The notes below the pieces were generated by a model. It made no database searches. It saw only the letters and a list, made by a program, of their open reading frames with translations, and was not told the DNA's origin. The translations under genes were made by a program, and so were the position numbers. Shown one piece after another: positions 23,836 through 42,534 of a stretch of 64,000 nucleotides of DNA (position 1 is the first letter of the stretch; each line of letters begins with the position of its first letter). This DNA comes from Frigoribacterium sp. ACAM 257 (GTDB lineage Bacteria; Actinomycetota; Actinomycetes; Actinomycetales; Microbacteriaceae). The stretch lies in assembly GCF_007954365.1 (NCBI RefSeq), contig NZ_VOLO01000001.1, positions 1,302,001 through 1,366,000 of the forward strand. The letters run 5' to 3'.

Positions 23836-23873
23836 ACAGCTGTCCTCCCCCGTCCGGGCACTAGGTTCACTGC

Positions 23874-24500: not shown

Positions 24501-24553
24501 CAGTTCGGCTCAGACCGTTCCGTTAGAGCGCGCCCATCACAGCTGGCCGATGA

Positions 24554-25048
24554 TCAACCCCTCCGATTCGCGAACGGGTAGCTCCCGTGCTCGGCCTTGA
24601 AGGCCTGCAGGTACTGCTGCTCGACCGCCAGCGCAGATTCACCGGGCGTCTCCAACCAGGCAACGAGGAGATCCTGCGACGTCTCGAGCTGCCAGAGCGA
24701 ACGGCCACCCGAGTGATTTGTCGCCTGCCGGCTGAACGCCCCCACCCGACGGTGGAGACCGACCTTGCCTTCTGCCTTTCCGATGTAGACGACCGGCACG
24801 TCCGTCATCCACCTCTCGCGAAGGTGCGCCGACGGATAGGGCGGCCACTTGTCGATGACGTTCGAATCGAGGAACTCGGGTTCTTGGTCCAGTTCATGCA
24901 CCACCACGTAGACCCCGTGCCGACGAGGGAGTTGCGTGCGGTCCATCCCGATCAGCGGCACGAACCCGACGAAGCCGACACGCTCAAGCTCCAGCCGGTT
25001 CCACGCAGCGGGAACCGCAGTGAGGGAAGGCGCCTCCGTCGAGCTCAT
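24554..25048 (-). CDS. GIY-YIG nuclease-like protein
   Basis: The 164-aa protein has GVYVVVHE (about residue 43) followed about 35 residues later by VPVVYIGKAEGKVGLHRRVGAF. This matches the GIY...YIG core with the Arg helix of GIY-YIG nucleases. The C-terminal part SALAVEQQYLQAFKAEHGSYPFANRR supplies the late Glu and Asn region of the fold. I chose the ATG at 25048; an upstream TTG (25114) would add 22 charged residues. It is divergent from the 407-aa coiled-coil gene across 200 bp with a pentanucleotide repeat. Confidence 0.6.
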   Translation of the reverse strand: MSSTEAPSLTAVPAAWNRLELERVGFVGFVPLIGMDRTQLPRRHGVYVVVHELDQEPEFLDSNVIDKWPPYPSAHLRERWMTDVPVVYIGKAEGKVGLHRRVGAFSRQATNHSGGRSLWQLETSQDLLVAWLETPGESALAVEQQYLQAFKAEHGSYPFANRRG

Positions 25049-25158
25049 CGCCCTGTCGCGCTCATGCTCCGAATTGTCGTCGTCCACGCCAGGATCATCG
25101 CATCCGCGGGACAAGGTCGGTACCTGGTGTGCGCTGGATCTGAACTATTGTCAACTCA

Positions 25159-25203
25159 GACCCGACCCGACCCGACCCGACCCGACCCGACCCGACCCAA
25201 CCC
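25159..25203. repeat. Pentanucleotide microsatellite (GACCC)x8 plus one variant unit
   Basis: Eight perfect GACCC units and one AACCC unit in the 5' region of the gene starting at 25249, 46 bp before its ATG. Slippage here could change promoter or leader spacing. Confidence 0.85.
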
Positions 25204-25248
25204 GTGACTACCCGCTCAGGGATCGCACGAGCATGCCTGGAGGAACCC

Positions 25249-26472: not shown

Positions 26473-26477
26473 ATCTG

Positions 26478-26511
26478 CCTAATGGCGCACGAGGACTTCG
26501 CCGTCATTAGG
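26478..26511. terminator. Hairpin after the 407-aa gene
   Basis: CCTAATG pairs with CATTAGG and the stem continues imperfectly (GGCG/CGCC), 5 nt after the stop codon. No T-tract follows, so a terminator role is tentative. Confidence 0.45.
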
Positions 26512-26610
26512 TTCGAGACATCCCAGTTCGGCGAGCACTGCCTGTTTTCGGGTGACTGACGCCACGCCCCTCGATCCGTTGTTGACTTGTCGACGATAAG
26601 ATCGCTGGTC

Positions 26611-27684
26611 ATGACCTTTGCACAGCCGGCCTTCCCTCCTTCGGCCGCCCAGATGGTGGATCTCTTCGCCGGTCCTGGTGGGTTGGATGTTGCCGCAAGC
26701 TGGTTGGGGTTGTCCGTGGCTGGCGTCGAGTGGGACGAAAACGCTTGCGCGACGAGACGGTCTGCGGGGCTGGAAACCGTGCAAGGTGATGTGCGGGAAC
26801 ACAGTCCGAAAGAGTTTCCTCATGCAACGATCCTCACCGGGGGCCCCCCGTGCCAGACGTATACCGTGGCCGGGGCAGGTGCCGGTCGTAAGGCGTTGAA
26901 CCAAGTCCTGTCATTTATTGACCGTATGGCCGACGGGGATAATGTCTCTAAGGAGCTGGCCGCCTTGGATGATGAACGAACTGGTCTCGTGCTTCAACCG
27001 CTGCGGTGGGCGCTCGAGGCGCATCGGTCGGGAAAACCCTACGAGGTGATCGTCTTCGAGCAGGTACCAGCGGTCCTGCCCGTTTGGGAGGCCATGGGCA
27101 AAGTTCTGCAGTCTCTCGGTTATAACGCCGTTACCGGCATACTTCACGCGGAGGAGTACGGAGTTCCGCAGACCCGCCGCCGAGCAATCTTGATCGCGAA
27201 CCGATACCAGACCCCCGTCCTGCCAGCCCCGACTCACCACCGGTTTAGGAACAGGCAGGTGGAAGCCCTCGCGACTCGACCTACGTTGCTGCCGTACCGA
27301 AGTATTGGCGAGACCTTGGACCGAGTCGAGCCTTATGAACTGGTGTCTAACTATGGGACCGGCGGTGACCCGAAGGCCCGCGGCCGGCGAACTTCAAAAG
27401 AACCAGCCTTCACAGTCACTGGGAAAGTTTCCCGGAACCGCCTGTTCTCTGACAAAGGTGAGCTCAGGCGCCTCATGGTCTCAGAAGCGGGTCGACTCCA
27501 GACCTTTCCTGCTGACTACCCATGGTCGGGCAAGGACGTATCCCAGCAGGTCGGTAACGCAATTCCACCGCGTCTGGCGGCTCACGTTCTAGCGGCTGCT
27601 CTCGGTCGAGAGCTCCCCCCCGATTTCCTGGACTTGATGACGAAGAGACCGTGGATTCCATCCACAACGAGTCCTCGCTTCTAG
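26611..27684 (+). CDS. DNA (cytosine-5-)-methyltransferase (DrmMII-like position)
   Basis: The 357-aa enzyme shows the C5-methylase motifs in order: I (VDLFAGPGGLDVAASW, about residue 16), IV (TGGPPCQTY with the catalytic Cys near residue 80), VI (FEQV instead of the usual ENV), VIII (PQTRRRAILIANR), a variable target-recognition region (about 210-290), and IX-X (SEAGRLQTFP...QQVGNAIPPRLA). It transfers a methyl group from S-adenosylmethionine to cytosine, protecting host DNA. A TAAGAT -10-like box 8 nt before the ATG at 26611 and no ribosome binding site suggest a leaderless start. It precedes the four-gene helicase operon and may protect against it or against the NaeI-like protein's site. 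Confidence 0.9.
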   Translation: MTFAQPAFPPSAAQMVDLFAGPGGLDVAASWLGLSVAGVEWDENACATRRSAGLETVQGDVREHSPKEFPHATILTGGPPCQTYTVAGAGAGRKALNQVLSFIDRMADGDNVSKELAALDDERTGLVLQPLRWALEAHRSGKPYEVIVFEQVPAVLPVWEAMGKVLQSLGYNAVTGILHAEEYGVPQTRRRAILIANRYQTPVLPAPTHHRFRNRQVEALATRPTLLPYRSIGETLDRVEPYELVSNYGTGGDPKARGRRTSKEPAFTVTGKVSRNRLFSDKGELRRLMVSEAGRLQTFPADYPWSGKDVSQQVGNAIPPRLAAHVLAAALGRELPPDFLDLMTKRPWIPSTTSPRF

Positions 27685-27942
27685 CACAAGAAAAGGAGTC
27701 GGCCCCCGTCAGCCCATCCCACGGAGGGCCCCGAACGTGGGTCCCGACCCGCCACTGGACCTCGATCCGGGTTCTGATCTGAAATCGCCCCGCGCACCCA
27801 GCTACAGCACTGCCTGCACAGCCAGCTACGAGCCTCTGCGGCCCTTTGCTTTAAATTAGTGGCGCGTATGACGGCGTTCCCACAAGTGAAGAGTCCTCGA
27901 CCTCATTATGATCAAGGCATCCGCGTGGGGAAGGAACCAGCA

Positions 27943-30900
27943 ATGACGCACGATGTGTGGAGCGAGCCGAATAAAGTGCTCCTAGCTTTTCTCGAGAACT
28001 GGCAGTCGGTGGTTCCTCGCATCTATAGCGAGGATCCAAAGTTGCTCCAGGAGCATGTTGGACAGGAAAACTCGTTTCGCACGAGTGGCTACTCACGTCG
28101 TCAAATCACTGAACTGGTTCAGAACGCGGCCGACGCGATCTTCAAATCGGGACAAACAGGACAGATCAAGCTTGTCTTGACCGACCGGTACCTGTACTGC
28201 GCGAACGACGGCGCGGAGTTCGACCAGGCAGGGATCGACGCGATCACTCACGCCTACCTCAGCGATAAGAGGGGCGAAGAGATCGGTCGCTACGGCCTGG
28301 GTTTTAAGTCCGTGCTAGCCGTGACCGACAACCCGCAGGTCTTTAGTCGGTCGGTCAGTTTCCACTTCGGGGCGCCGGAAGCCCGAGTGATCCTGAGTGC
28401 GGTCGGTGCAAATGAGGACGACCTACCCATTCTGCGGCTACCCACGGTCTTGAACGCGGCAGACGCGATCGACGATGACGCCACTCTGTGTGAACTTACG
28501 GGATGGGCTAGCACCGTTGTGCGCCTTCCGCTTCGGGAGCATGTGGAGCTGGAGGAACAACTACTCGACTTTCAAACCCAGTTTCTTATTTTCACGCCTC
28601 ACGTCGAGGAGCTGTCGATCGTCATACGTCGTGGAGGTGTTGAGCGAGAGGTCGAGCACTCCTGCAGATCGGTAGGGCCGTCGTCCTATGAGCTGCGAGG
28701 GCCCGGACTCATTGCCCAGCAATGGGCCATTTTCAAGACGGCACATCAACCTTCCTTGGCGGCTCGGCAGGAGGTCGACGACGCGATTGCTCGCAAGTCG
28801 ATCCTCGTCACCTGCGCCATGCCTTTGGACTCCCCCGGTAAAGAGGGTGAGTTCTGGGCAAACTTCCCGTTGTCCGACCGGACCTCTGCCGTCGGTATCT
28901 TCAACGCTCCATGGGCGCTGAGCGAGGATCGCAGCCACATCCTGACCGAGAAGAAGTACAACACCGAGATATTTGACACGATGGCTCAACTGTTCGTTGA
29001 TTCTTTGCCACACCTGCGTACACAAGAGCAGCCAGCGCGCCACCTTCGATATCTACCGAGCCGCCCCCAGGAGTACCATTCCTTGGCGGACAAAGCCCTG
29101 ATCTCGCAGATTCATCGCAAAGCTTCGGAAGCGGCGTTAATCCCCGATTCCGGTGGGGAGCTACGTCATGGATCCGAGATCATTGCCCTCAACTACGGGG
29201 TTGTCCTCCCTGCGGCTGCCATGGCAGCATGGATCGCTGCTCCCCACACGCCTAAGCATGTACCTCACTTGTCATGTTACCAAGATGACAAAAATGGGAC
29301 ATTGAGGGTCCGCCTTCGAGAAATGCACCGGAGGGCATTCGCCGATGCCGGAGCTCTTCTTCAACGAGATTTGCCGCCTTCAAGGAACGAACTTGATCCC
29401 TCGGTCTGGTTGAGCATGCTCGGCGATGTGGACGACTCGAGGTACCCACGAGCCGCGCTGACGATGATCTCGATCCTTGAACCGGAGATGGCCCGGAAAT
29501 CGTTGTCCTCGGCTCGGATCGTTCCTACCGACCGAGGGCGGCGAGTGACCCTAAGCGAGTCAGCAACGGTGCACCTTCCTCCTGATGTCGGACCGGCGCT
29601 GCCGGGCTACGAGTTGGTGTCGAGCGACATCGCCAAAAATCCGTCCTGCCGCAAGGTGCTTCAGGAGTTTGGGTTTAAGACGTTGGACTCCGAGATTGTC
29701 TTCACCTCGATGCTCTCAACCATGGGGCCTGGTTCCACTGATCGTCAGTGGGAGGACCTGTGGGACCATGCCCTTAACCTCGAGCCACGTCGATTGCTGC
29801 TGATACTAAAAGACTGGAGGCGCGCGGGCAACGTAGTGAAGGTCAGCACGAAAGCCTCCACGTGGCGGGACTCCGAAAAGGTCTTCGCACTTCGCAAGCC
29901 TGCTGTAACACTCCCATGGCGAGATCGGGAGCTGGTACCCAACTTTCTGAGCGAGGACCTTATCGAGGCGCTGGGCGTCGTGACCGGCTTTTCACACCGG
30001 TACCCGGTGATCGATGAACCGGAGTTTGCACGCTATCGCGCCTGGGCAATCGAACGGGTCCAAGGAGCAACTGACGGGGATCAGAAGTCAGTACCGGAAG
30101 ACTGGTACTTCACTGAAGAACAAGGAGCAGGCCCCATGGGGCTCATCCATGATCTATTCCAGGTGAACCCACAACCGGTACCTGATTTGGTCCAGTTGAC
30201 CGCAGCCCTGCTTAGAACCGGCACTTCCCGAGAGTGGAATCTGCATAGCCCGGACGGATCAGAAAGCTTCACGGTACCGGCCCCGCACCTGTGGGCCGTA
30301 ATGGAGTGGGGTCTCGCAGAGACGTCCTATGGCGTGCTTCCGGTATCACGCGCAGTTTCCCCTCTTCTCCAACCGTACTTTCCTTGGGTGCCGGTACCCC
30401 TGGATTCGCATTTTGGCACGCTGCCGTTGGCCGAGTCGATCGAGGAGATCGACACCGACATGCTCCTGCAGGGAATGAGGGCAGGTCAGGACATGCAGGC
30501 GACTCCCGCATTGACCACCTCACTTCTCAAATTTCTCTCCGAAGCCCTTTCAAAGATCCGCGATGAGCAACGTTGGACAGGCGACGTCCCGGCCATCGTC
30601 GGTTCGGTTTTCGACCTGGTTCCCGCCGGGAACGTCTTTGTCGCATCCGACCAGGCGCAGGTCGATGTCCTGGTGCGATCGAAGAGTCCATACCTGTTCG
30701 TCGAGGACGGAACGCTTCGGAAGGTTCTTTTCGAGCATGCGGACTTCCGGGACGCCGCGACCGCCATCCAGTTCGAAGTAATTCCACAGCAACCTGCCGA
30801 GCCAGTTCTGCTCACGGACTGCATTCCGCCCGTGCTGAGGCTGCTCGACAGGGGAGATCGGCGACTCACCATCACAGAGTGCTCCGGGATCGTGGCGCGC

Positions 30901-32658
30901 CAGTTGACGCCGGCCGGTACGCAGGAGCAGGCCCTGACGCGGACGTTCTACGGTGGGACCATCTACGTGACCAGTGATCCTTCAGTGAGGGAGGATGCTC
31001 ACGATCTCCTCACTTGGATCAGCCAGGAAGTCGGTCTCCGGCTGAGTGCCGCGGACATTGATGATGTAATCCAAGCACTTAGTGACGCCGATACTAACGA
31101 AGTCAGGCAGCGGTGTCGTGCTGCCACATCTAACGAGGACCGACTTAAGGTATTGGCGACACCGGCTCAGCTCGACGCCAAGCTTCCTCGTGGTCTCACA
31201 GGCACCCTTCGCGCTATGAGTTCTTCGGTGCGCGACGGCGACATGGCTCGGTTGTTCCTCGATTCATTCGGCACTGACAGTTTGGCTCAATTGACGGGCG
31301 AGTTAAGGTCTCGCGGGTTGACGCCTCCTGACAAGTGGGGCGGCCTTGGGCCTGCCCGCAGGTTCGTCACAGATCTTGGGTTCACACCGGACTTCGCCGG
31401 GACGCCCAAGCCCTTGCGTCCGCCGTCGGAGACCGTGATGGGCAAACCTGGCCTCGGGGCGTTGCACGATTATCAGCGGGATGCTTTGCGTGAACTAAGG
31501 TTCTGCCTTCGTTCTAACCCCGGCAATGCCGATAAGGCACTCCTGGAGTTGCCGACCGGCGCCGGGAAGACCCGTGTTGCTGTCGAATCGCTGGTGAAGG
31601 CGTTTTTGGACCGCGATTTCGCGACAACTGGCCCGGTGTTGTGGATCGCCCAGTCGGCGGAACTGTGTGAACAGGCCATCACGACGTGGAGTGAGGTTTG
31701 GCGGGAGTTCTCCGATGAAAGGTCGTTGAGTATAAATCGATTCTTTGGTGGGCATCGACCTCAAGTACCCGAGTTGGAGTTGAGCGTGGTCGTAGCTACC
31801 GATGCGATGCTTTATGAGCACATCGACGATGATTCGTACGACTGGATCTATTCGCCTGTCGCCGTGATCGTCGACGAGGCTCACCGGGCAGCGGATAGTA
31901 AGACGTATCGCAGGATCTTCCAAAGGCTCGGGGTTGACCTCGGGCACCAGGAGCGTCCCCTGATCGGTCTCTCCGCGACTCCATACCGGGGTAGGAGCGC
32001 TGAGGCAACGGAATTGTTGGCCAAGCGGTTTGGAAACAATCTTGTTCAAGCGTTGGGATCTAACCCGATAAAAGAACTTCAAGATCGTGAGGTGTTGGCT
32101 CGTATCGATCACGAGACCCTTCCCGGTATAAGACTGACCATGGATAAGTCGGAAATCGATTTCAACAACCTGTCGCAGGACACGTTGGACAGGGTGGGTG
32201 AAGACCAGGAACGGACGAAGGGCATCGTCAAGCACATCCTTGCACTGCCCGAGGGGTGGAAGGTTCTTGTGTTCATGCCGTCGGTGCTCTCGGCCCAAGT
32301 CCTGGCAACGATCTTGAAGAATGAGGGCGTCGAGGCAGCATCAGTAAGCGGGCGGAGTTCACGCGGTGAGCGGTCAAAGGTGATTTCTGACTTCAAAACC
32401 GGTTCTCTTCAAATTTTGGTCAACTGTGAGTTGTTAATCCAGGGTTTTGATGCTCCTCAGATCCGTGCACTTTATGTCGCTCGACCGACCCTGAGCGAGA
32501 GCGAATATGTGCAGATGGTGGGGCGTGGGCTGCGAGGACCTAAGAATCGCGGATCAGAGCGGTGCCTGGTAGTAAATCTTCAGGACACCATCGAGAACGT
32601 TAATGTTGATTTGGCTTACCGGGGGTTCACCCAGCACTGGGGGGTGGACGAATCGTGA
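27943..32658 (+). CDS. Sacsin-like HATPase fused to SF2 (DEAH) helicase
   Basis: The 1571-aa protein joins two ATP-using modules. The N-terminal 200 residues form a sacsin/Hsp90-type nucleotide site (YSRRQITELVQNAADAI, CANDGAEFD, GRYGLGFKSVLAVTD). The central 1000 residues are unrecognised. The C terminus is an SF2 helicase with Walker A LPTGAGKTRVA (about residue 1202), DEAH in VIVDEAHRA (1308), motif III GLSATPYRG (1341) and motif VI QMVGRGLRG (1523). It probably remodels or translocates on invading DNA. I chose the ATG at 27943 (GAAGGA 8 nt upstream); ATG 27868, which could be leaderless behind TTAAATT, would add 25 residues. Its stop overlaps the next start (GTGA). Confidence 0.8.
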   Translation: MTHDVWSEPNKVLLAFLENWQSVVPRIYSEDPKLLQEHVGQENSFRTSGYSRRQITELVQNAADAIFKSGQTGQIKLVLTDRYLYCANDGAEFDQAGIDAITHAYLSDKRGEEIGRYGLGFKSVLAVTDNPQVFSRSVSFHFGAPEARVILSAVGANEDDLPILRLPTVLNAADAIDDDATLCELTGWASTVVRLPLREHVELEEQLLDFQTQFLIFTPHVEELSIVIRRGGVEREVEHSCRSVGPSSYELRGPGLIAQQWAIFKTAHQPSLAARQEVDDAIARKSILVTCAMPLDSPGKEGEFWANFPLSDRTSAVGIFNAPWALSEDRSHILTEKKYNTEIFDTMAQLFVDSLPHLRTQEQPARHLRYLPSRPQEYHSLADKALISQIHRKASEAALIPDSGGELRHGSEIIALNYGVVLPAAAMAAWIAAPHTPKHVPHLSCYQDDKNGTLRVRLREMHRRAFADAGALLQRDLPPSRNELDPSVWLSMLGDVDDSRYPRAALTMISILEPEMARKSLSSARIVPTDRGRRVTLSESATVHLPPDVGPALPGYELVSSDIAKNPSCRKVLQEFGFKTLDSEIVFTSMLSTMGPGSTDRQWEDLWDHALNLEPRRLLLILKDWRRAGNVVKVSTKASTWRDSEKVFALRKPAVTLPWRDRELVPNFLSEDLIEALGVVTGFSHRYPVIDEPEFARYRAWAIERVQGATDGDQKSVPEDWYFTEEQGAGPMGLIHDLFQVNPQPVPDLVQLTAALLRTGTSREWNLHSPDGSESFTVPAPHLWAVMEWGLAETSYGVLPVSRAVSPLLQPYFPWVPVPLDSHFGTLPLAESIEEIDTDMLLQGMRAGQDMQATPALTTSLLKFLSEALSKIRDEQRWTGDVPAIVGSVFDLVPAGNVFVASDQAQVDVLVRSKSPYLFVEDGTLRKVLFEHADFRDAATAIQFEVIPQQPAEPVLLTDCIPPVLRLLDRGDRRLTITECSGIVARQLTPAGTQEQALTRTFYGGTIYVTSDPSVREDAHDLLTWISQEVGLRLSAADIDDVIQALSDADTNEVRQRCRAATSNEDRLKVLATPAQLDAKLPRGLTGTLRAMSSSVRDGDMARLFLDSFGTDSLAQLTGELRSRGLTPPDKWGGLGPARRFVTDLGFTPDFAGTPKPLRPPSETVMGKPGLGALHDYQRDALRELRFCLRSNPGNADKALLELPTGAGKTRVAVESLVKAFLDRDFATTGPVLWIAQSAELCEQAITTWSEVWREFSDERSLSINRFFGGHRPQVPELELSVVVATDAMLYEHIDDDSYDWIYSPVAVIVDEAHRAADSKTYRRIFQRLGVDLGHQERPLIGLSATPYRGRSAEATELLAKRFGNNLVQALGSNPIKELQDREVLARIDHETLPGIRLTMDKSEIDFNNLSQDTLDRVGEDQERTKGIVKHILALPEGWKVLVFMPSVLSAQVLATILKNEGVEAASVSGRSSRGERSKVISDFKTGSLQILVNCELLIQGFDAPQIRALYVARPTLSESEYVQMVGRGLRGPKNRGSERCLVVNLQDTIENVNVDLAYRGFTQHWGVDES

Positions 32659-34253
32659 AGTTGATTCCACCAGCTGATTACATCAGCGCTCAGAGTCGTG
32701 CGGAGCTTAAGGTCGCCGAACTGCTCACGGCTATCCGCTCGGACGAAGGTGTTGCCTACCACTCAGTCCACCTTCCTCGACACCGTAAACAGGTGATGGG
32801 TGAGGCGGACTTCGTGGTGCTGTGGAAGGGAGCGATCCTTGTGTTGGAGGTCAAGGGAGGGCGAATCGGTCGGACCGAGCACGGCCTCTGGTACTCCATG
32901 GACCGGCAAGGAGCTCAACATCCTCTACAGCGCAGCCCATGGGTGCAGGCCAAAGACGCTACGTTCGCGTTGCTGGACATTCTCGCTGAGCAGTCGGACG
33001 GCAGATGGCCATTCGCCTACGCGGTGGTGACTCCTGACCAGAATTTGCCGGCAGACGCGGAATGGATTCCGCAGCAACACATCGGGTTGGAGCGGATGAC
33101 GCCCTTAGCATTGGAGCGCAGCCTTGACGCGCTGGCCCGTATGGCTCGGACACCACCGGACCACGCTCGGCGCGAAGGTTTACGTCCGATGGCGGACCTC
33201 TCCATCGTCGTCACCTACCTGCGGCGGGAGGTGGACGCCATGCGTACCGTGCCGGACACCGAAATGCTCATCGAGCGGGATATCTTGACCATGACCGATG
33301 AGCAGGTCGATGCGATGCAGGCATTCGAACGCAATTCGCGGGTTCTAGTCCTGGGCGGGGCCGGCACAGGAAAGACCGTCTTGGCAATCGAAGCAGCACG
33401 CCGGGCGACCGCCGACGGCAGTTCTGTGGCCTTCGTATGCGGCTCCCCCGGCGTCTTGGACTTCGCCTCAAAATTATTGAGCGAGAGCACGGTTCAGTTG
33501 GTGCCCGTCAATTCGATTCCTGAAGAACCGGTCTTCGACGTCGTCGTGGTGGACGAGGCACAGGACCTACTCAACGTCGAGGACATGAGTCGGCTTTCCG
33601 ATTCTGTGCGTGGCGGATTGCACGGCGGCCGGTGGTGGATCTTCCTGGACCCTAATAATCAGACTCACCTGGTCGGGGTATTTGACGACGCGGTTTACCA
33701 GGAAATACAGGCCGGTGCCACCATCGTCGATCTGACGAAGAACGTGAGGAACGCCCGCACAGTCGTGACAACGGTCCAGTCCCATCTCGGGGCGGATCTT
33801 GGTAGCCCACGCATCGGTGAAGGGCCGGGCGCTTCAATCGTGCAAGCCCAGGGCTCGGAAGCAGTTCGACGTCTCTTGGACAACCGCCTTGATGCCCTTC
33901 GCGGCCAGGGCGTCAGTCGGAAAAAGATCACCATCATCAGTGCTGCCGCAGACGCCTCCTTGTCGATCCTGGCCGATGAGGGCCTGCAACCGTCGACTTA
34001 CACCGTCAACGACTGGTCCGTCGAGGTCGCCGCAGCAGCGAACGTAAAAGGCCTGGAGCGGGAGCACGTGATTGTCGTTGATGTCACCGACCTCGACACT
34101 CCCAGGGGGCGGGCCGCGTCTTACGTCGCGATGACCCGCCCTCGCTACTCCCTCTACGTGATTAGTTCTCCGAGCGCGTACCAGGTCATGGGACGAAACG
34201 CACTTCAATACATCCAGCAGGAGGCAAAGAAAGACAATGCCCGCCATGAATGA
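32655..34253 (+). CDS. NERD nuclease-related domain fused to SF1 (UvrD/DUF2075-like) helicase
   Basis: The 532-aa protein has an N-terminal NERD domain with PD-(D/E)xK-type residues (AELKVAELL, GEADFVVLWKGAILVLEVKGG, about residues 15-75). An SF1 ATPase follows: Walker A VLGGAGTGKTVLA (about 230), Walker B VVVDEAQDL (about 299), LTKNVRNARTV and the late motif YVAMTRPRYSLYVI. NERD domains are predicted nucleases, so this could be a helicase-nuclease. The GTG start overlaps the preceding stop and the end overlaps the drmA-like start, placing it firmly inside the operon. Confidence 0.85.
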   Translation: MKLIPPADYISAQSRAELKVAELLTAIRSDEGVAYHSVHLPRHRKQVMGEADFVVLWKGAILVLEVKGGRIGRTEHGLWYSMDRQGAQHPLQRSPWVQAKDATFALLDILAEQSDGRWPFAYAVVTPDQNLPADAEWIPQQHIGLERMTPLALERSLDALARMARTPPDHARREGLRPMADLSIVVTYLRREVDAMRTVPDTEMLIERDILTMTDEQVDAMQAFERNSRVLVLGGAGTGKTVLAIEAARRATADGSSVAFVCGSPGVLDFASKLLSESTVQLVPVNSIPEEPVFDVVVVDEAQDLLNVEDMSRLSDSVRGGLHGGRWWIFLDPNNQTHLVGVFDDAVYQEIQAGATIVDLTKNVRNARTVVTTVQSHLGADLGSPRIGEGPGASIVQAQGSEAVRRLLDNRLDALRGQGVSRKKITIISAAADASLSILADEGLQPSTYTVNDWSVEVAAAANVKGLEREHVIVVDVTDLDTPRGRAASYVAMTRPRYSLYVISSPSAYQVMGRNALQYIQQEAKKDNARHE

Positions 34254-37200
34254 AGCCGCCGAACGCCAGAATCGAGTGGTCGCGCACCTCGAGCAGCAAT
34301 ATTTGGGCCCAATAGAGGGACCGAAAGAACGACTCAGGAACCGCCCGAATGCAACCTACCTCGTTGGCGTTCTTTACCCCGTCGGTATCGGCGCAGAGGT
34401 CGAGGAACCGCAACCGCCGACCGAGGAGAACACCAGCGAAGAAAGAGTGGATGGTCTTGAGGAACCCGCCATTGACATGGCGAACGCCTACCACCCCTCC
34501 TCCAGCGCCCTTTCATTCATCCACGACGGTAACGCAGTAGAGGTCGACATAACGTACGCCACCTACGGCGAGGAGAAGACCGACACCCATGTTGCCTGGC
34601 AGCGTGTGGGCCACGAATTTCCCGCAATCCGGTGCGATCAGGCAGCCGCAAAGGTATCCCCAGGAGACGGGCGCGTGCATCTCGACGTTCGATGGCGGCC
34701 TTTCGGCGAGAACAGTTCACTAGTTACCATTGCCATTAGCAACACCCGCCAAGCCCCGGAGAGAGACGGCGAGCGACAGCTACGCACCGAGGACTGCCTC
34801 TACCAAGTCGGCATGACCGTCCGCTCGATTGGGGGTCGGATACTTCCCTACCGGACAGTCGAGGACCTCCGGCTGGATCCAGAACAAGAAGAGCTTGCAG
34901 TGCGGTACCGACACCGTCAAGTCTTCGCTGTGGGTCATGGAACATCCGTCCGTTGGCAACATGACGGAGCTGGTGGGTGCTCTTGGGTGTCTTTGGATCC
35001 TCTACCTCGCTACACCGTCCCAGCCGTCGAGGCCAAGCGAAGCAACGCGGGGATTCTCCAGCTTGATCGTCTCAGACAGATTCAAGAATACACCGGACTC
35101 GTCTTAGCCGAGCTGAGGACCTTCGTCGATGAATACCAACTCTGGACCCAGGAACAGGCTGAGCAAGAGCTTGGCCTCGAGCGACACCACCGGCAAGCGG
35201 CCCAGAGGATCACCGACCGACAGCTCAAAGCCGTTGACCGCATGCGCGAAGGAATTACCCTCCTGGAGGGCTCCTCCACCGCCAGGAGCGCTTTCCGTCT
35301 GGCCATGTCCGCCATGCAGGAACAAATGCTTCAATCTGGCCGCGCCAAAGCTGACGGTCGCAAAACAACCGAACTCGAAGGTAAACCGACGTGGCGACCG
35401 TTCCAGTTGGGTTTCATCCTCGTTGCGCTGGCCAGCACCGCGGACGCTGAACACGCCGACCGCAACCTTGTTGACCTGATCTGGTTCCCCACCGGTGGAG
35501 GCAAGACAGAGGCCTATCTCGGGTTGGCGGCGTTCGAGATATTCCGACGTCGGCTCCACCACGGGATTGGAGGAGGCGGTACCGCCGTTATCACCCGCTA
35601 CACCTTGCGCTTGCTGACGACACAACAGTTTGAACGCGCGGCGACTCTAGTTTGCGCCATGGAACGCCTCCGAATGACCGATTCGCTCGCACAGGGCATG
35701 GCCCCCTTTACCATCGGACTTTGGGTCGGTAACGCAACTACCCCAGGGACGCAGAAGGAGGCGATCAGGCGCCTCGAACTTACCCGAAAACGGGAAATCC
35801 CCGACAACCCCTTTCAGCTCACTCGATGCCCCTGGTGCGGGCACCGCATGATGCCAGAAACCAAGTCCGAACACGCAAGAGATTATGGCGCCGTCAGCTC
35901 CGCCGGAGATATCTGGCTTCGGTGCCCGGACCAGACCTGTTTTTTCCACGATCGGCTCCCCGTCGAGGTCGTCGACGAAAGAATTTACAAGTACCCGCCC
36001 ACCATCTTGCTGGCGACCGTCGACAAATTCGCGCGGCTGCCCTTTATGCAAGAGGCAGGGGTCCTGCTTGGCGCCGGCAACACGGCCAATGAACCACCGT
36101 CGCTCATCCTCCAGGACGAAATGCACCTACTCTCCGGTCCCCTCGGCACCACGGTCGCAATCTACGACGCCGCGGTCCTGGGCATCATCGGGGAGGGCGG
36201 GGGACGCCCGAAAATTGTCGCCTCCACCGCGACGATCCGCTCCGCCGAGGACCAGGTAAAAGGCTTGATGGCGAGGAAAGTAGAACTGTTCCCACCCTCG
36301 GGACTTACTGAAGAGGACAGCTACTTTGCCCGTGCCGTGCAAGACACTGACGCCCCAGGAAGGACCTATATCGGCCTCATGCCGCAGGCCTTTACACAGG
36401 CTACGTCGGTCGTGCGAGCCACCGGCGCGATGCTTGAAGCGCCCAGGATGGCCACTCAGGGGCCACAAGACCTGAAGGGTGCCGATGCATACTGGACAGT
36501 GGTGGCATACCACAACAGCCTGCGCGAACTCGGTCGAACCGTGACCCTGGTCCGGGACGATGTCAATAGTTTGCTGGCGACCCGGCCGGGACCCACGGGA
36601 AGGGCCCGGCAGATCCGCGGCGACGGACTTGTGGAGTTGACCAGCCGCGTGGATGCCCAGGAACTTCCTAAAAGCCTTCAGCGATTGGCCCGCGGCCTCG
36701 AAAAAGGCGATGCCGTGGACGTGGTCGCCTGCACGAACATGTTGTCGGTTGGTATCGATGTCCCGCGCTTGGCCCTGATGCTCATGAATGGTCAACCCAA
36801 GACCACCTCGGAATACATCCAGGCCACGAGTCGGGTCGGACGCGGCGATGTCCCCGGCGTCATCGTCACGTTGTACCGGGCATCACGCCCACGCGATCGT
36901 TCTCACTACGAGTCTTTCCTCGGCTATCACCAAGCGCTCTATCGCAGTGTGGAACCGACCAGTGTGACTCCCTGGTCGGCGGCGTCCAGGCACCGGTCCT
37001 TGGCAGCCGTCCTCGTTACAATGATTCGCCACTTGAGCCCATGGCGAGACGACTCGCAGGCAGTACTCTTCCGGGCCGATTCTAATGTGGTGCGCAACGT
37101 CCGGGAGACAATACTGGATGTAGTGAAGCGTTCGGATCCGGACGAATATCTCGCCACGATGAAGCATCTTGATCGCCTAATCGACGAGTGGCGCATTCGC

Positions 37201-37380
37201 ACCTCCCCGGACCCCGAAACCGGAGACTCGGCGCTGCGGTATGAGCCCCTTCGAGGGACGCCCAAAGAGCCGGCTCTGATGCGCGCCTTCGACGAGGATC
37301 GGCATGGCTGGGCTGTCATGAATTCGATGCGCAGTGTCGATTCAAATGTCAACATCAAAATAATCGGAGAGAAAGCATGA
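34237..37380 (+). CDS. drmA: DISARM DrmA-like helicase
   Basis: The 1047-aa protein matches DrmA in layout. An N-terminal segment reads NRPNATYLVGVLYPVGIG. A long beta-rich region follows, then an SF2 helicase with Walker A WFPTGGGKTEAYLG (about residue 420), a Cys4 zinc site inserted in the helicase core (RCPWCGHRMM...RCPDQTC, about 530-570), Walker B as LILQDEMHLL (DEMH, about 626) and a C-terminal lobe CTNMLSVGIDVPRL and YIQATSRVGRGD (about 862). DrmA with DrmB forms the core of DISARM, which blocks incoming phage DNA. The start at 34237 has AGGAGG 12 nt upstream within the NERD gene (17-nt overlap). Confidence 0.82.
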   Translation: MPAMNEAAERQNRVVAHLEQQYLGPIEGPKERLRNRPNATYLVGVLYPVGIGAEVEEPQPPTEENTSEERVDGLEEPAIDMANAYHPSSSALSFIHDGNAVEVDITYATYGEEKTDTHVAWQRVGHEFPAIRCDQAAAKVSPGDGRVHLDVRWRPFGENSSLVTIAISNTRQAPERDGERQLRTEDCLYQVGMTVRSIGGRILPYRTVEDLRLDPEQEELAVRYRHRQVFAVGHGTSVRWQHDGAGGCSWVSLDPLPRYTVPAVEAKRSNAGILQLDRLRQIQEYTGLVLAELRTFVDEYQLWTQEQAEQELGLERHHRQAAQRITDRQLKAVDRMREGITLLEGSSTARSAFRLAMSAMQEQMLQSGRAKADGRKTTELEGKPTWRPFQLGFILVALASTADAEHADRNLVDLIWFPTGGGKTEAYLGLAAFEIFRRRLHHGIGGGGTAVITRYTLRLLTTQQFERAATLVCAMERLRMTDSLAQGMAPFTIGLWVGNATTPGTQKEAIRRLELTRKREIPDNPFQLTRCPWCGHRMMPETKSEHARDYGAVSSAGDIWLRCPDQTCFFHDRLPVEVVDERIYKYPPTILLATVDKFARLPFMQEAGVLLGAGNTANEPPSLILQDEMHLLSGPLGTTVAIYDAAVLGIIGEGGGRPKIVASTATIRSAEDQVKGLMARKVELFPPSGLTEEDSYFARAVQDTDAPGRTYIGLMPQAFTQATSVVRATGAMLEAPRMATQGPQDLKGADAYWTVVAYHNSLRELGRTVTLVRDDVNSLLATRPGPTGRARQIRGDGLVELTSRVDAQELPKSLQRLARGLEKGDAVDVVACTNMLSVGIDVPRLALMLMNGQPKTTSEYIQATSRVGRGDVPGVIVTLYRASRPRDRSHYESFLGYHQALYRSVEPTSVTPWSAASRHRSLAAVLVTMIRHLSPWRDDSQAVLFRADSNVVRNVRETILDVVKRSDPDEYLATMKHLDRLIDEWRIRTSPDPETGDSALRYEPLRGTPKEPALMRAFDEDRHGWAVMNSMRSVDSNVNIKIIGEKA

Positions 37381-39203
37381 GCCTAAAGGGACGGCAGGAC
37401 AAAACACCTGATATGCGCCAGCTCACCCTGCAAGAAACTATCTATCCCTTTGGAGTCGGCGCCATCGTTGACATCAAGAGCGAGTCATTCATTGGGATGG
37501 ACACTGGGACCTGGAATGAGGAGACCTGCGAGCGCATGTCGTGCCCTCCGCTGGAAAGGGAATTGGGCGTTCTCCAGCTACGTCGTCCGCCCACAGCCGG
37601 TGACTTTAGTCGCAGACCAGGCTTCGCCCTACCCTACCGGCGGTTTCCAAAATGGCGATTCTGCCAGGACTGCACTCTGATGTCCAACCGGGTCCATCAC
37701 AAGAACGGAGCCAGCACAAACGACTGCTCGAGATGTGGGGGACTCATGGTCCCGATGCGTTTCGTCGCGGTCTGCGCTGCTGGAGGTCACATTCAGGACC
37801 TCGACTGGCGGCGGTGGGCTCACTTTGAGTCTTCGAGCGACGAGCAACGCCAATGCAAAGACTCCGAGCACCTGGAGTTGCGAACGAATCCGGAGGCGGG
37901 CGAAGGACTGCGTTCGTTGAGGATCCTTTGTCGCGCCTGTGGCGCTTCGAGGGACATGGGGTCGCTAGGACGCAACACGTCTTTGGCCGAGGAAGGGTAC
38001 AGATGTTGGGGCCTGCAGCCTTGGGAGCCGCAGGATGCCACCAAGGAGTGCACCGAGGAACTGAGAGTCGTCCAACGGGGGTCTACAAGCGTCTACCAAG
38101 CGGAGACGGCTTCGGCGATCGACATACCAGAGGTGGAATCAGCCACGATTGCGCTCCGGGCCAAAGTCCTCCAGAACGACATGTTTAAGGGCGTTTTTGG
38201 GCAGCAAGAAGGCCCTTTGTTCGATCTTGCCGTACCGGTCATCGCGGACCAGACCGGGGCCCCGGAGTACATGGTCCGCCACATGTTAAGAGCCGATCCC
38301 GCGGCAGACACGGCACAACTTCAGAGCAATCTTCGTTCAGGAGAATGGGCGGCGTTCGACAGGGTACTGGCCGGGGACACGGAAGTGACAAATCCTGATT
38401 TCGATGTGCTTCCTTCGGACTACCCTCGGCAGCCGGGTCCGATGCCGGCCCTGGCCGAATTGGTTGCGGACGTCGGATTGGTCCGGAGGTTGCGAGAAGT
38501 ACGTGCGTTGCGGGGATTCCGCCGCTACGAGCAGCAAGACTTCACTCGCGTGGATCTTGGGACCATCGACGGCCTTAAGTGGTACCCGGCCATCGAGCAG
38601 TTTGGGGAGGGTATCTTTCTGCGATTCAACGAGGAAGCCCTTTGCGCGTGGGAGGAAAATACCGCCGTCCGGCAACGCACCCAGCACTGGATCGATCGAG
38701 GCGCAAACCTGTCGAATCGCAGGGCCGTCATCAACGATCTCCACCCGCGATACATTCTTCTGCACACCTTGGCTCACCTACTGATGCGTCGGCTGGAGTT
38801 CCAGAGTGGATACTCCGCCGCGTCTCTTTCCGAACGCATTTACGCCTCGAGCGACGGTCCTGACCCCCAAGGCGGGCTGCTGATCTACACGAGCAACGGA
38901 GACGCTCAGGGAACCCTGGGCGGCCTCGTACGTCTGGGGGAGGCGCGGTACTTTTCCAGACTGCTCTTGAGCGCGGTCGAGGATGCCGATCGGTGCTCCA
39001 ATAACCCCGTCTGCGCGGAGAGCCGCGGGCAAGGAATGAACAGTCTCAACTTGGCTGCCTGTCATGCGTGCAGCCTGGTCTCCGAGACCTCGTGTGAGCG
39101 CAGCAACATGTACCTCGACCGTAAACTCCTGGTTGGCGATGAATTCGTACCGGGCTTCTTTCAAAGTGTCCTGTCGAGTGCCCGCGCGAGCATCGCGACG
39201 TGA
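37377..39203 (+). CDS. drmB: DISARM DrmB-like DUF1998 protein
   Basis: The 608-aa protein opens with RQLTLQETIYPFGVGAIVDIKSESFIG, as DrmB proteins do. It has a zinc-ribbon-like RFCQDCTLMSN...NDCSRCGGLMVP (about residues 93-125), a second Cys pair in ILCRACGAS, and the DUF1998 core near the C terminus: HTLAHLLMRRLEFQSGYS, GGLLIYTSNGDAQGTLGGLV and a final NPVCAES...ACHACSLVSETSC metal site. In DISARM the DrmA-DrmB complex binds DNA and is autoinhibited until triggered. The ATG overlaps the drmA stop (ATGA). No DrmC (phospholipase D) gene follows. Confidence 0.85.
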   Translation: MSLKGRQDKTPDMRQLTLQETIYPFGVGAIVDIKSESFIGMDTGTWNEETCERMSCPPLERELGVLQLRRPPTAGDFSRRPGFALPYRRFPKWRFCQDCTLMSNRVHHKNGASTNDCSRCGGLMVPMRFVAVCAAGGHIQDLDWRRWAHFESSSDEQRQCKDSEHLELRTNPEAGEGLRSLRILCRACGASRDMGSLGRNTSLAEEGYRCWGLQPWEPQDATKECTEELRVVQRGSTSVYQAETASAIDIPEVESATIALRAKVLQNDMFKGVFGQQEGPLFDLAVPVIADQTGAPEYMVRHMLRADPAADTAQLQSNLRSGEWAAFDRVLAGDTEVTNPDFDVLPSDYPRQPGPMPALAELVADVGLVRRLREVRALRGFRRYEQQDFTRVDLGTIDGLKWYPAIEQFGEGIFLRFNEEALCAWEENTAVRQRTQHWIDRGANLSNRRAVINDLHPRYILLHTLAHLLMRRLEFQSGYSAASLSERIYASSDGPDPQGGLLIYTSNGDAQGTLGGLVRLGEARYFSRLLLSAVEDADRCSNNPVCAESRGQGMNSLNLAACHACSLVSETSCERSNMYLDRKLLVGDEFVPGFFQSVLSSARASIAT

Positions 39204-39564
39204 CCCGACCGGCACAGTCAAACGGGACAGCGTCTGCAGACCGCCACCCGTGTCCCTATTCTGTCGCCCCGGCACCGCATTGGCCCCCAAGCTTGGTGAG
39301 CTCTGGAACCGAAACGCCATGGATGGATACAAATGGTCAGTGCTGTCCTCGACCACGACACGGCCCCGCGATAGGCGGACCATATTTCGATAACTAACAC
39401 GAAACTGTTCTCGTATAATAGCCGAGACGCGGGCATGGAAATGCATCGATGCAGAACGTGATGTAATTGGTTGTGGTGGCGCCTAGGACAGGAGACTCGG
39501 ATGGTCAAATATACCGCAACCAGCCAAGCACAAGCATCACCGACGCTCGCAAACTTGGTAGACG
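39204..39564. other. Intergenic region with promoter-like and operator-like sequences
   Basis: The 361 bp between drmB and the NaeI-like gene hold a consensus TATAAT (39414-39419) flanked by the inverted pair TCTCG/CGAGA, a perfect 12-bp palindrome TGCATCGATGCA (39442-39453) and a short leader ORF with a ribosome binding site. No long gene. It looks like a separate promoter for the NaeI-like/HNH genes. Confidence 0.5.
39414..39453 (+). promoter_or_regulatory. Candidate promoter (-10 TATAAT) and operator for the NaeI-like gene
   Basis: TATAAT at 39414-39419 lies between TCTCG and CGAGA. TGCATCGATGCA at 39442-39453 would fall about 15-25 nt after the transcription start. I see no good -35 box, so an activator or a specific sigma factor may be needed. 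Confidence 0.4.
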
Positions 39565-39575
39565 ATGACTGCTAG
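39501..39575 (+). CDS. Possible 24-aa leader ORF overlapping the NaeI-like start
   Basis: ATG preceded by GGAG 6 nt upstream; it encodes MVKYTATSQAQASPTLANLV plus four residues, and its stop lies 11 nt inside the NaeI-like gene in another frame. Translation of this ORF could couple or limit translation of the following gene, which lacks an obvious ribosome binding site of its own. No homology recognised. Confidence 0.4.
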   Translation: MVKYTATSQAQASPTLANLVDDDC

Positions 39576-40674
39576 CGCCGCCGATGATCTTGCCCTTTTC
39601 GACGACGGCTCGCAGCCGGCCGCAGACAAAAAGAGCGCGAGAGCCTTAGCTGGGTCTTCGGGAACGCGACGAGCCCGCCCCTCTTCCCCCGACCCGGCCA
39701 GATGGCCGGAACCGACTTGGAAGTCGCGTGCTCGCAGGACGCCAGCCGTTCCCCCTACTCCCGACCAAGACCCCGAAGTGCACCGCATCAGGGACTGCAT
39801 CGAGGCAGCCGACCCCGAGGGCATCCGGTGCGGACGTGCTATACGACAGGCTCTCGATCAGACATACGACGGTCGACGGACGGGGCGGTGGGACCTAACT
39901 CAGCTGACCAAGGCGGAGACAGTGCATATTGGATCGCTGATCGAGGTCTGGCTACAACGGGTATTTGATCTCTCCGACGGCGTTAATACCTCGCTCCAGG
40001 TCGCCGGTTACGACGTTGCCTGTACATGGAGTGAGCGGATAAACGGCTGGACACTCGATCGTGCCTATTCCAGAGAGCATGAAGTGCCCGTCTTGGTCGT
40101 TTGGGCCAATGAGGAGACATCCCGATTCAGCATTGGCGTCCTTCGTCCCGGCCCTGAATCGCGTGGGATGGCTTCCATGGACCGGGGGCGCCCCCGCTTG
40201 TCCCAGACCGGGATCGACCAGATTTTGTGGATTTTCGACGGCGCTGCTCTACCGGCCAATATTCTCGTAAAACATCCCGCGATAGCTATGGAAGCAGTAC
40301 TTCAGCTCTCGGGACAATCGGCTGTCAACACACTGTTTCGCCGGTTACAAGGAGAGCTAATCCCACACGCCGCCGTGGAGACGGTCGCTCAGCAAATCGA
40401 CTCTTCGAAACGGATTCGTGATGCTCGGAGAGACCTAAAGAATGAAGGAATCGTCATCCTGGGGCCCTTGCATCCTCAACCTAAAATTGCGGCTGCACTC
40501 GGGCTGCCGCTCCCCCAAGCTGGAAGCTTCGTGAGCCACCGCTTGGCCCCGATGAAAGTCAGCGAAGTTGGCATTGGCGCAGAAATCGGCGGTAGACGTT
40601 GGCGTCTTGCTACTGCGAGTGATTCGGTCACCACCGCCCCTACGCTCCCCGTCCAAGGCAAGGAAAGGGCATAA
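39565..40674 (+). CDS. NaeI-like type IIE restriction endonuclease homologue, catalytically degenerate
   Basis: The 369-aa protein resembles NaeI over its length: DQTYDGRRTGRWDLTQLTKAE, HIGSLIEVWLQRVF, LQVAGYDVACTWSERINGW, FDGAALPANILV, and the C-terminal CAP-like DNA-binding part ending DxxxxWRLAT-like. With a constant offset of 57 residues, NaeI Glu70, Asp86, Asp95 and Lys97 correspond here to Glu127, Ser143, Ala152 and Thr154. Only the Glu remains, so metal-dependent cleavage is unlikely. It may still bind DNA (NaeI has two DNA-binding domains) as a sensor or loader. The N-terminal 70 residues are a basic, Pro-rich extension. Downstream of drmB in the island. Confidence 0.75.
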   Translation: MTASAADDLALFDDGSQPAADKKSARALAGSSGTRRARPSSPDPARWPEPTWKSRARRTPAVPPTPDQDPEVHRIRDCIEAADPEGIRCGRAIRQALDQTYDGRRTGRWDLTQLTKAETVHIGSLIEVWLQRVFDLSDGVNTSLQVAGYDVACTWSERINGWTLDRAYSREHEVPVLVVWANEETSRFSIGVLRPGPESRGMASMDRGRPRLSQTGIDQILWIFDGAALPANILVKHPAIAMEAVLQLSGQSAVNTLFRRLQGELIPHAAVETVAQQIDSSKRIRDARRDLKNEGIVILGPLHPQPKIAAALGLPLPQAGSFVSHRLAPMKVSEVGIGAEIGGRRWRLATASDSVTTAPTLPVQGKERA

Positions 40675-41081
40675 TTCTGCATGCCTGGGCCGGTCGCACG
40701 CCCTGCAGTCGTTGTCCATCCCAAAGTCGCAGGACAGAGACGGGACGAACGGCTCCAACCTACGGGTACCGTCGGTCGTCGCGTTCCTCCTCTTGCAATC
40801 GCCGGATGGCACGCTATTCGAAGGGCAGCGGGCGCTGATCAGCTAATTAAGTCAGCGATTTAGACGAGAGCCTGCCGGGCACGACAAATGCGACAGGGCA
40901 TGAGTCGATGACGGCAGCTGTCCACCCCATTCCCGCCCCCTCCGAGGCGAGCGACTTGATGTGCGCAGTCCCAGTCATATTGATGACTAATTTGAGGCTG
41001 ATCAAATGGTCCGCGGGATCTCGCGGGCTTCCAATTGCGCCCAACGTTGGGGATGATGAGAGCGCATGCCATTCTTGAGAA
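40675..41081. other. Gene-poor spacer between the NaeI-like and HNH genes
   Basis: The 407 bp contain only a 60-codon ORF of doubtful reality (40681-40863). There is also a weak promoter-like pair, TTGATG (40956) and TATTGA (40978), with a 16-bp spacer. Nothing else recognised. Confidence 0.45.
40681..40863 (+). CDS. Doubtful 60-aa ORF after the NaeI-like gene
   Basis: It starts 6 nt after the NaeI-like stop without a clear ribosome binding site and encodes a basic peptide (RPAVVVHPKVAGQRRDERL, then PPLAIAGWHAIRRAAGADQL). I do not recognise it. It could be the remnant of a gene lost between the two nuclease-like genes, or chance. Confidence 0.25.
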   Translation: MPGPVARPAVVVHPKVAGQRRDERLQPTGTVGRRVPPLAIAGWHAIRRAAGADQLIKSAI

Positions 41082-42341
41082 GTGCACGCTTACTCGGACG
41101 AGGGCTCTCCCATTGCTGCGACGTTCTCCATTGAAAAGGACGCTGACTACTTCGCGGTGATCCTCGAGAGTCGGAGTGGACCGTCGCGAGGCAATCCGGC
41201 CCGGAACCCCGAGTACAACGTCGCGTTGGAATTGCTTCTCGTTCGACTCGCAGGGTTGAGGGCAACCTTGTGGGACGCATTCGTGGACTCCGCCGTTGCC
41301 CGAAGGCTGCCGAAACAAGCGAGACGTATTCTCGATGCGCCTGTCGGCCTGGATGATGCCACTGATGTCCACCAGATGCGGATGCGGCTGAGCGTGGCCG
41401 CCTCGGGGGTCGGTCGTGAGCCGGGCGCAGCAGGCGAAGGAAATCGAACAAAACGTATCAGGCTAATCGTCACGGTTCCCGGCCACGAACCCTACGATTC
41501 GCGAGCTCTACAAGTCGTACTCGCCCGACCACCGATGACTCTTGACCCTTCCCCCGCAGCAATCGGAGGCTTCCTCCGCGATCTAATCGGCCTCGAGCTG
41601 CTCACGATCTCTGACCGACGGATCAACGTGATACTCGCTGTCCGGGCTAATGACGTCCTTGTTGCCACCGATGAATACCTGAGTGGTCAGACTGTACCCG
41701 TAGCAAGTGTGGCTACAGCAATGGAGACGCTGCGACGGGACGGCGCCATTGATGCCACCCCGGCGACTCTTGGGAATCGAAGCTCGTTCATCGGTGCAGT
41801 CCTGCTCCAGTTGCCAGGTGCTCGCGTTGTAGACACGAAACCACCGCAGATTGTTATAGTCCCGGACGCTAGCCAGGAATTCGATTTGGAGGAGCAAGAG
41901 TCGGTCCGTGCGGCGTCGATCCCGGGCCCCTTCCAGGGTGCTCTCAACCGTCTTACCACTGTCCGCCAGCGGCGAGAACAGAGTGCGCTGCGCATGGCGC
42001 TCCTGCACGGACGCGACGAGGCCGCTTGCGCGTTGTGCGGTGAACTCTTCCCGTCGCGCTTCCTCTGGGCGTCTCACATCAAGAAGCGTGCGGCGACGAA
42101 TGAAGATGAGGCCCGAGACCTGCCGGGCATTGCGATGCTCGCGTGTATCTTCGGCTGCGACGCCCTCTTCGAGGATGGGTACATTTCCGTGGATGGCGGC
42201 AGAGTCATCGGGACGTCGACAGTAGGCAGGATGAGCGCCATCGGACGCCGCGTCCGAGAACTACATGGACGAATAGTGCCGAACTACTCTCAGAGTGCCG
42301 CGTACTTCCAGTGGCACCTGCAAAATGTCTTCCTGGCGTGA
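41082..42341 (+). CDS. HNH endonuclease-domain protein
   Basis: The 419-aa protein ends in an HNH/beta-beta-alpha-metal module: CALCGELFPSRFLWASHIKKR (Cys316, Cys319, catalytic-type His332) and LACIFGCDALFEDGYISVDGG. This is the arrangement of the restriction-associated HNH group with C-x2-C and a second Cys pair. The 300 residues before it are unrecognised: an acidic N terminus and an alpha/beta region that could be a DNA- or modification-recognition domain. As last gene of the island and beside a dead NaeI homologue, it is a candidate nuclease effector. The GTG at 41082 is uncertain. Confidence 0.7.
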   Translation: MHAYSDEGSPIAATFSIEKDADYFAVILESRSGPSRGNPARNPEYNVALELLLVRLAGLRATLWDAFVDSAVARRLPKQARRILDAPVGLDDATDVHQMRMRLSVAASGVGREPGAAGEGNRTKRIRLIVTVPGHEPYDSRALQVVLARPPMTLDPSPAAIGGFLRDLIGLELLTISDRRINVILAVRANDVLVATDEYLSGQTVPVASVATAMETLRRDGAIDATPATLGNRSSFIGAVLLQLPGARVVDTKPPQIVIVPDASQEFDLEEQESVRAASIPGPFQGALNRLTTVRQRREQSALRMALLHGRDEAACALCGELFPSRFLWASHIKKRAATNEDEARDLPGIAMLACIFGCDALFEDGYISVDGGRVIGTSTVGRMSAIGRRVRELHGRIVPNYSQSAAYFQWHLQNVFLA

Positions 42342-42460
42342 ATATAACGACGTCACGCGCTTGCTGGCTGTGTTCAGAGCCGAACCACTTGAAAGCTCTT
42401 TGGCCCGATGGAAACGTAAGAAAAAAGTCTCGGAAACCCAAGGTGTACGAGTCATTTCGG

Positions 42461-42534
<74 letters not shown>

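Follow-up and report, generated by a model that had tools for sequence, protein, structure and literature searches.

What kind of system do DrmA and DrmB form when they are encoded without DrmC and behind two further motor proteins? The question is raised by a 64,000-nucleotide stretch of Frigoribacterium sp. ACAM 257 (contig NZ_VOLO01000001.1, positions 1,302,001 to 1,366,000; the whole stretch is referred to below as the window), in which four co-directional genes on the forward strand (window 27859-39203) follow one another with overlaps of 4, 17 and 4 bp. The first encodes a fusion of a sacsin-type HATPase with a superfamily 2 (SF2) helicase, abbreviated HATP below, the second a fusion of a NERD nuclease domain with an SF1 helicase, and the third and fourth DrmA and DrmB. 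DISARM (defence island system associated with restriction-modification) is known in two classes, drmABC with drmD and drmMI (class 1) or with drmE and drmMII (class 2). The present module looks like a real, recurrent, DrmC-less variant of DISARM and apparently a separate branch of it; it was filed as a variant and not under class 1 or 2 because neither DrmC nor the class marker DrmD or DrmE was among the matches listed for the window proteins. An earlier note on this DNA had named a C5-methylase, the four overlapping core genes, a NaeI-like protein and an HNH protein, and profile matches confirmed that all of them are present (Table 1). DrmA (1047 amino acids) and DrmB (608 amino acids) are separate adjacent genes; DrmA scored below the equivalog cut-off of NF038325 (950 bits) and DrmB above the cut-off of NF038324 (240 bits), and the MZB and DrmB models each gave a single match in the source genome.

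Conservation of the module was surveyed in 394 genomes of the class, window included, by searches for HATP and DrmB. Full-length HATP was found at 18 loci in 17 genomes, and at 17 of the 18 loci DrmA-DrmB lay downstream on the same strand; the exception was genome G118, with DrmB ~27 kb away on the same contig and strand. DrmB was split over two frames at locus L035. DrmB above cut-off was rare (68 rows, of which 30 scored at least 638 bits, 17 lay beside HATP and 21 were others), yet nearly every HATP locus had the pair downstream, so the linkage of HATP and DrmAB is not chance.

A wider contig scan with an alignment of the 18 HATPs as query yielded the best 80 (78 loci) of at least 373 relatives, a sample biased to close relatives; a search with one HATP protein as query had returned no related loci. 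The pooled set comprised 93 HATP loci, with the window, duplicates (L044, L048) and partial loci (L049, L050) left out. HATP was followed by DrmA-DrmB in one order at 86 of the 93. The full series HATP-SF1-DrmA-DrmB was present at 81, the SF1 helicase being of NERD type in 32 and of UvrD type in 49, and HATP-DrmA-DrmB without a middle gene at five (L068, L070, L075, L076, L078), four of which carried DrmD and DrmMI-like methylase genes upstream. Pfam saw no NERD domain in the two UvrD-type SF1 helicases scanned. Two modules were truncated by a contig end (L108, L113), and DrmAB was not seen behind HATP at L087, L112, L121, L122 and L128, with less than 2.5 kb covered behind HATP at L121 and L122; on the contig of L087, the locus is opposed by another, L107, whose module is complete. 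Gaps between core open reading frames (ORFs) were 9 bp or less in all 68 of 96 loci with full-chain ORF calls, as measured from the longest starts, which overstates overlap. The ordered set proposed in the earlier note thus recurs in other genomes, and its NERD-helicase holds for the window and 32 of the 81 loci with an SF1 gene, most relatives having the UvrD type instead. Plasmids gave no match to HATP at 1e-60, and viral contigs gave one near-full-length distant relative (L229), the remaining kept matches covering the helicase part. At two loci, L049 and L217, an SF2-only relative of HATP (~580 amino acids) stands beside an opposite-strand DrmA-DrmB pair; one comes from the class of the window and the other from a phylum-wide search centred on a Chloroflexota locus.

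DrmC was found at 0 of the 93 HATP loci by tblastn in the DNA covered (mostly ~3 kb behind DrmB). The loci were also screened with a two-motif phospholipase D (PLD) pattern, which asks too much of the DrmC proteins here with their single HKD motif. Classical loci, namely 20 fetched of the 30 DrmB loci at 638 bits or more, served as positive control: a one-HKD PLD gene followed DrmB in 19 of the 20, and tblastn with DrmC recovered the same 19. Four of the five tblastn queries were true PLD genes after DrmB, the fifth (L166) being a wrongly picked ORF. A one-motif PLD pattern was run on 40 loci (L129-L168) only, and a whole-genome PLD search matched 58 of 58 genomes and was uninformative on linkage. 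No PLD family was among the matches listed for the window proteins, and neither DrmD nor DrmE was among the PADLOC matches listed for eight of them; a DrmD-like gene was present at 6 of the 93 HATP loci. Within this scope the proposed lack of DrmC and DrmE was borne out, and a PLD gene is not a usual part of the set.

DrmC was likewise not found by tblastn in 20 of the 21 other DrmB loci, which are lower-scoring and have no adjacent HATP, and these 20 are further DrmC-less DISARM-like forms. An SF1-DrmA-DrmB series without HATP was seen at L129-L135 and L142, and another DrmC-less DISARM-like form at L136, L137, L139, L140 and L141. The genes after DrmA-DrmB at L137 encode a sigma-70-like, an AIPR and a methylase-like protein, and a divergent UvrD-like helicase is present there too; a divergent sigma-70-like protein occurs at L131 as well.

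The core proteins keep their motifs. HATP consists of a sacsin/GHKL-type HATPase (residues ~55-440) and a RadD-like SF2 helicase (~1200-1580), and between them (~440-1190) no Pfam family was matched in the 18 members at E ≤ 0.01 (match positions taken from the window protein). The Bergerat (ATPase) and SF2 motif residues were invariant across the 18 HATPs; conservation was at least 95% for E50, D52, E65 and K67 of NERD together with Walker A and DEAQ of SF1 (28 sequences), for the DrmA motifs (89 sequences) and for many DrmB cysteines (85 sequences). V1034 of the window DrmA aligns with V1296 of Serratia DrmA, and all 89 module DrmAs compared, that of the window among them, have valine there. 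In Serratia, V1296 contacts a DNA base, and 5-methylcytosine DNA lowers ATPase activity (PMC9142583).

An unrooted DrmA tree was built from 85 of 128 sequences, three groups being randomly subsampled. Modules of NERD type grouped in one lineage with those lacking a middle gene, and the UvrD type formed a second that lies closer to classical DISARM; a single grouping of all 51 module rows with L130 was rejected (approximately unbiased test, p=2.2e-131, two quick trees). The HATP tree split in the same way for most rows, with L035 and L045 outside the UvrD clade. HATP may accordingly have met DrmAB at least twice or have been lost often, and the unrooted tree fits either course. Within the NERD subtype the window sits on a long branch, with identities to the rows in the trees of at most 51% for DrmA and 36% for HATP.

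Table 1. Features of the island and its borders (window coordinates).
Feature	Position	Strand	Evidence
Variable island between conserved flanks	23727..42455		Same-genus genome alignments
C5-cytosine methylase	26611..27684 (ORF opens 26587; ATG 26611)	+	PF00145 4.8e-34; FAGPGG, PCQ and QQVGN motifs
Core 1, HATP	27859..32658	+	1599 amino acids; NF047352 sacsin ATP-binding 5.8e-20; ResIII 1.3e-17
Core 2, NERD nuclease domain + SF1 helicase fusion	32655..34253	+	PF08378 6.4e-09
Core 3, DrmA helicase	34237..37380	+	NF038325 876.5 bits; PADLOC DrmA 1.5e-206; 7s9v 4.9e-139
Core 4, DrmB (MZB/DUF1998)	37377..39203	+	NF038324 419.7 bits; PF09369
NaeI-like protein	39565..40674	+	PF09126 6.6e-79; 1ev7 1.3e-54
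HNH protein, EcoKMcrA-like N-terminus	41082..42341	+	Weak PADLOC HNH 4.9e-05; 6r64 E=0.0038, residues 1-134
tRNA-Pro(ggg), right border of the island	42459..42534	-	tRNA call; border from same-genus alignments

The methylase of the window matched MTase_II (3.3e-89) and DrmMII (2.9e-23) in PADLOC. At E ≤ 1e-50 it was found in 3 of 246 genomes (the window, G118 and G089), each time within ~11 kb of DrmB (~8.5 kb in G118; ~11 kb in G089, where the match is partial), and because its close relatives are so confined it is likely a dedicated, self-marking enzyme of the system. Relatives at least 40% identical lay near 33 of the 93 modules and near 1 of the 40 DrmB loci fetched that have no HATP beside them; to this extent the methylase clade goes with the module. 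Related methylases were also found at E ≤ 1e-30 in 35 of 50,697 phage records (16 Arthrobacter, 13 Streptomyces, 4 Rhodococcus, 1 Microbacterium and 1 Saccharomonospora), a count that includes some duplicates. Five were fetched (ON526979.1, L308; GQ919031.1, L309; NC_048097.1, L310; GU580943.1, L311; PP393683.1, L312). The enzyme of Woodruffvirus Asis fell inside the module methylase clade, with support of 95 for the branch and of 84 and 91 for its inner forks, and the other four outside, in a tree that was drawn partly open, held one very divergent row and carried a long-branch warning. Since such close relatives occur in actinophages, the phage methylases could possibly provide self-marking as counter-defence.

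Among known systems, the module shares DrmA, DrmB, a C5-methylase and the V1296 equivalent with DISARM classes 1 and 2, and differs from them in its two extra motor proteins, in a DrmA below the equivalog cut-off, in that DrmC was found at none of the 93 module loci and in the absence of DrmE from the PADLOC matches listed for the window proteins. The distinct system proposed in the earlier note thus stands as a recurrent four-gene unit without DrmC, classed as a DISARM variant. ARMADA, BRIGADE and TALON, defined in PMC12458937, are likewise YprA-family helicase systems, and TALON has a NERD nuclease and ARMADA II a GajB-like SF1 helicase, as the module has NERD and SF1; their DUF1998 is typically fused to the helicase (PMC12458937), whereas DrmB is separate here. 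Membership in ARMADA or Druantia was rejected, DrmA and DrmB being separate genes on which Pfam found no nuclease domain. The same 2025 preprint states that the DISARM clade contains 'many uncharacterized DISARM-like' classes, and the words HATPase, sacsin and NaeI are absent from its main text (PMC12458937). The N-terminal part of TmtA, a PADLOC 2.0.0 family of ~1060-1780 amino acids, matches HATP 54-526 (1.7e-48), and the likeness is limited to that part; no paper naming the source or system of TmtA was found in the literature searched. GHKL ATPases have been tied to SF2 helicases beside methylases and nucleases in restriction-modification systems (PMC2292703), and the module matches this MORC/paraMORC setting in its pairing of GHKL ATPase and SF2 helicase, but the available text of PMC2292703 has neither DrmA/DrmB nor a sacsin-SF2 fusion. 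The RTasNERD-Hel, Nhi and GajB-type SF1 helicases of PADLOC are also NERD-SF1 or UvrD-like, and these names belong to other systems. No published description of this operon, and no named DISARM subtype corresponding to it, was found in the literature searched (supplements and subscription papers lay outside its scope).

We consider it reasonably probable that the module is a DrmC-less, HATPase-type DISARM variant acting as follows. The C5-methylase would mark host DNA, and DrmAB, which keeps the proposed methylation-sensing valine, would load on incoming DNA at single-stranded ends or forks that are unmethylated. Under the control of ATP, HATP, as a GHKL clamp with a RadD-like translocase, would hold and remodel either this DNA or the complex of DrmAB. 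The SF1 helicase would unwind the DNA and, in the NERD subtype, the NERD domain would cut it, so filling a role that in classical DISARM may fall to DrmC. The sequences themselves show the gene set and its conservation, the intact motifs, the linkage of the methylase and no DrmC found; defence activity, complex formation, the order of these steps and the part of NERD as effector are what we infer.

Several observations weigh against this scheme. With 49 of 81 SF1 loci of UvrD type, NERD cannot be the general effector. DrmC has been reported as apparently non-essential and often missing in DISARM (PMC9142583), so that its absence alone is not new and a replacement nuclease need not exist. The Serratia trigger-loop region gave no alignment to the window DrmA. 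Matches to the window methylase were found by tblastn at only 53 of the 93 loci, and ORF clusters show a methylase at 69 of 96. HATP without DrmAB behind it on its strand occurs at L087 and L112 (10 kb examined) and at the Chloroflexota-side loci L128 and L216 (~4 kb examined). Against leaving NaeI and HNH out of the core, the HATP-less locus L129 (genome G237) combines, like the window, a methylase, a distant NaeI-like protein, NERD, DrmA, DrmB and HNH, and an HNH relative accompanies DrmAB at L143.

The four solitary HATP genes would also be expected if two adjacent systems shared a promoter, a paraMORC-like GHKL/SF2 plus SF1 module and a minimal DrmAB that are co-selected and act independently. 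The SF1-DrmA-DrmB loci without HATP point the same way, as does the absence of an adjacent HATP at 21 of the 38 lower-scoring DrmB rows, although among those 21 G118 has its HATP ~27 kb off and G057 has an SF2-only relative. The coupling at 86 of 93 loci in one order, mostly with overlapping ORFs, and its origin or persistence in two DrmA lineages argue for one system, and we regard two independent systems as unlikely.

A restriction system, in which sequences are recognised by a dead NaeI-like protein and cut by the helicases with NERD or HNH, appears less likely still. The NaeI-like protein aligns over nearly the whole NaeI chain and reads E, S, A and T at E70, D86, D95 and K97 (numbering by the 1ev7 chain), which we take to be the catalytic positions; with three of the four residues lost it is probably nuclease-dead. 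This, the combination at L129, the NaeI gene ~13 kb from DrmB in G373 and the NaeI or NgoMIV genes near some modules would suit recognition by a dead enzyme. NaeI was, however, near only 7 of the 93 modules and HNH near none by tblastn (two more distant NaeI genes appeared in ORF clusters), and of the 26 genomes in which NaeI occurs, just three (the window, G237 and G373) had it within 15 kb of DrmB. Furthermore, 33 other NaeI homologues were compared (8 near modules, 25 from genomes). The four residues are E,D,D,K in 26 of them, Q,D,E,K in four, E,D,D,R in one and H,D,D,K in one, with one (L190, internal stop) degenerate; those near other modules look like ordinary restriction-modification cargo because they keep E/Q-D-D/E-K/R. 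The suggestion in the earlier note that the NaeI-like and HNH proteins are recognition and cutting parts is therefore weakly supported, with the co-occurrence at L129 and L143 in its favour, and these counts and the lost catalytic residues against it; both were dropped as core parts. The NaeI-like protein is an accessory or relic. HNH is probably separate cargo: its CxxC and HIKxR are conserved among homologues, its N-terminus weakly matches the EcoKMcrA DNA-binding domain (0.0038) and the protein has no Pfam match, while homologues were found in 11 of 296 genomes (that of the window among them), some without DrmB (e.g., G148), and on one viral contig (51%). NgoMIV and NaeI both cut GCCGGC, and an NgoMIV-like enzyme was seen at L053 (5320-6648; PF09015, 6.3e-41), where the nearby module has a NaeI homologue as well.

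The module lies in an island whose flanks align with same-genus genomes to ~23,725-23,738 and resume at 42,448-42,459 (the tRNA-Pro end), with other cargo between. Both borders with ~9-16 kb of different cargo were found in four of seven relatives (L219, L220, L221, L225); L224 seems to show both, its right flank being 68% identical and at the very end of its stretch, and the L222 and L223 stretches stop short of the right flank. Ten cargo proteins from three relatives were scanned: L219 carried a type II restriction-modification pair with an OLD/GajA-like protein, L221 carried Drt3a/Drt3b (DRT3) with a UvrD-like helicase, and L220 proteins gave weak matches or none. Because this sister-species cargo includes other defence systems, the tRNA-Pro site is a defence hotspot of the genus. 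G+C content was 58-61% across 26-42 kb; the rest of the window had 69-77%, apart from 65% at 24-26 kb. No integrase was seen among the scanned window ORFs and no att repeat at the tRNA end among the repeat families listed. At the left edge of the island a small ORF (23874-24500) weakly matched uracil-DNA glycosylase (PF03167, 0.00062, below cut-off), and a short GACCC tandem repeat lies at 25159-25213. YprA/MrfA and RadD act in repair and the SF2 part of HATP resembles RadD, but a DNA-repair or genome-maintenance operon outside immunity was considered and dropped as very improbable, given the patchy distribution, the low-G+C island in a tRNA defence hotspot, the linked methylase and the DISARM DrmA/B as nearest helicases.

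For DISARM as a family, we tentatively suggest, at somewhat less than even confidence, a third, widespread architecture in which the sacsin-type ATPase clamp/SF2 fusion and an SF1 helicase replace DrmC, DrmD and DrmE. It would have been put together on two distinct DrmA lineages and would depend on a methylase clade of its own that actinophages would have captured as self-marking counter-defence. The module would be a sizeable DISARM branch that escapes DrmC-based searches (17 of 68 DrmB rows, 394 genomes). It connects ATPases of the Hsp90/MORC type with DISARM, and through it the question of how DNA is destroyed by DISARM without DrmC, left open by PMC9142583, becomes testable. It also predicts that the methylases of some Streptomyces phages would protect them from the module.

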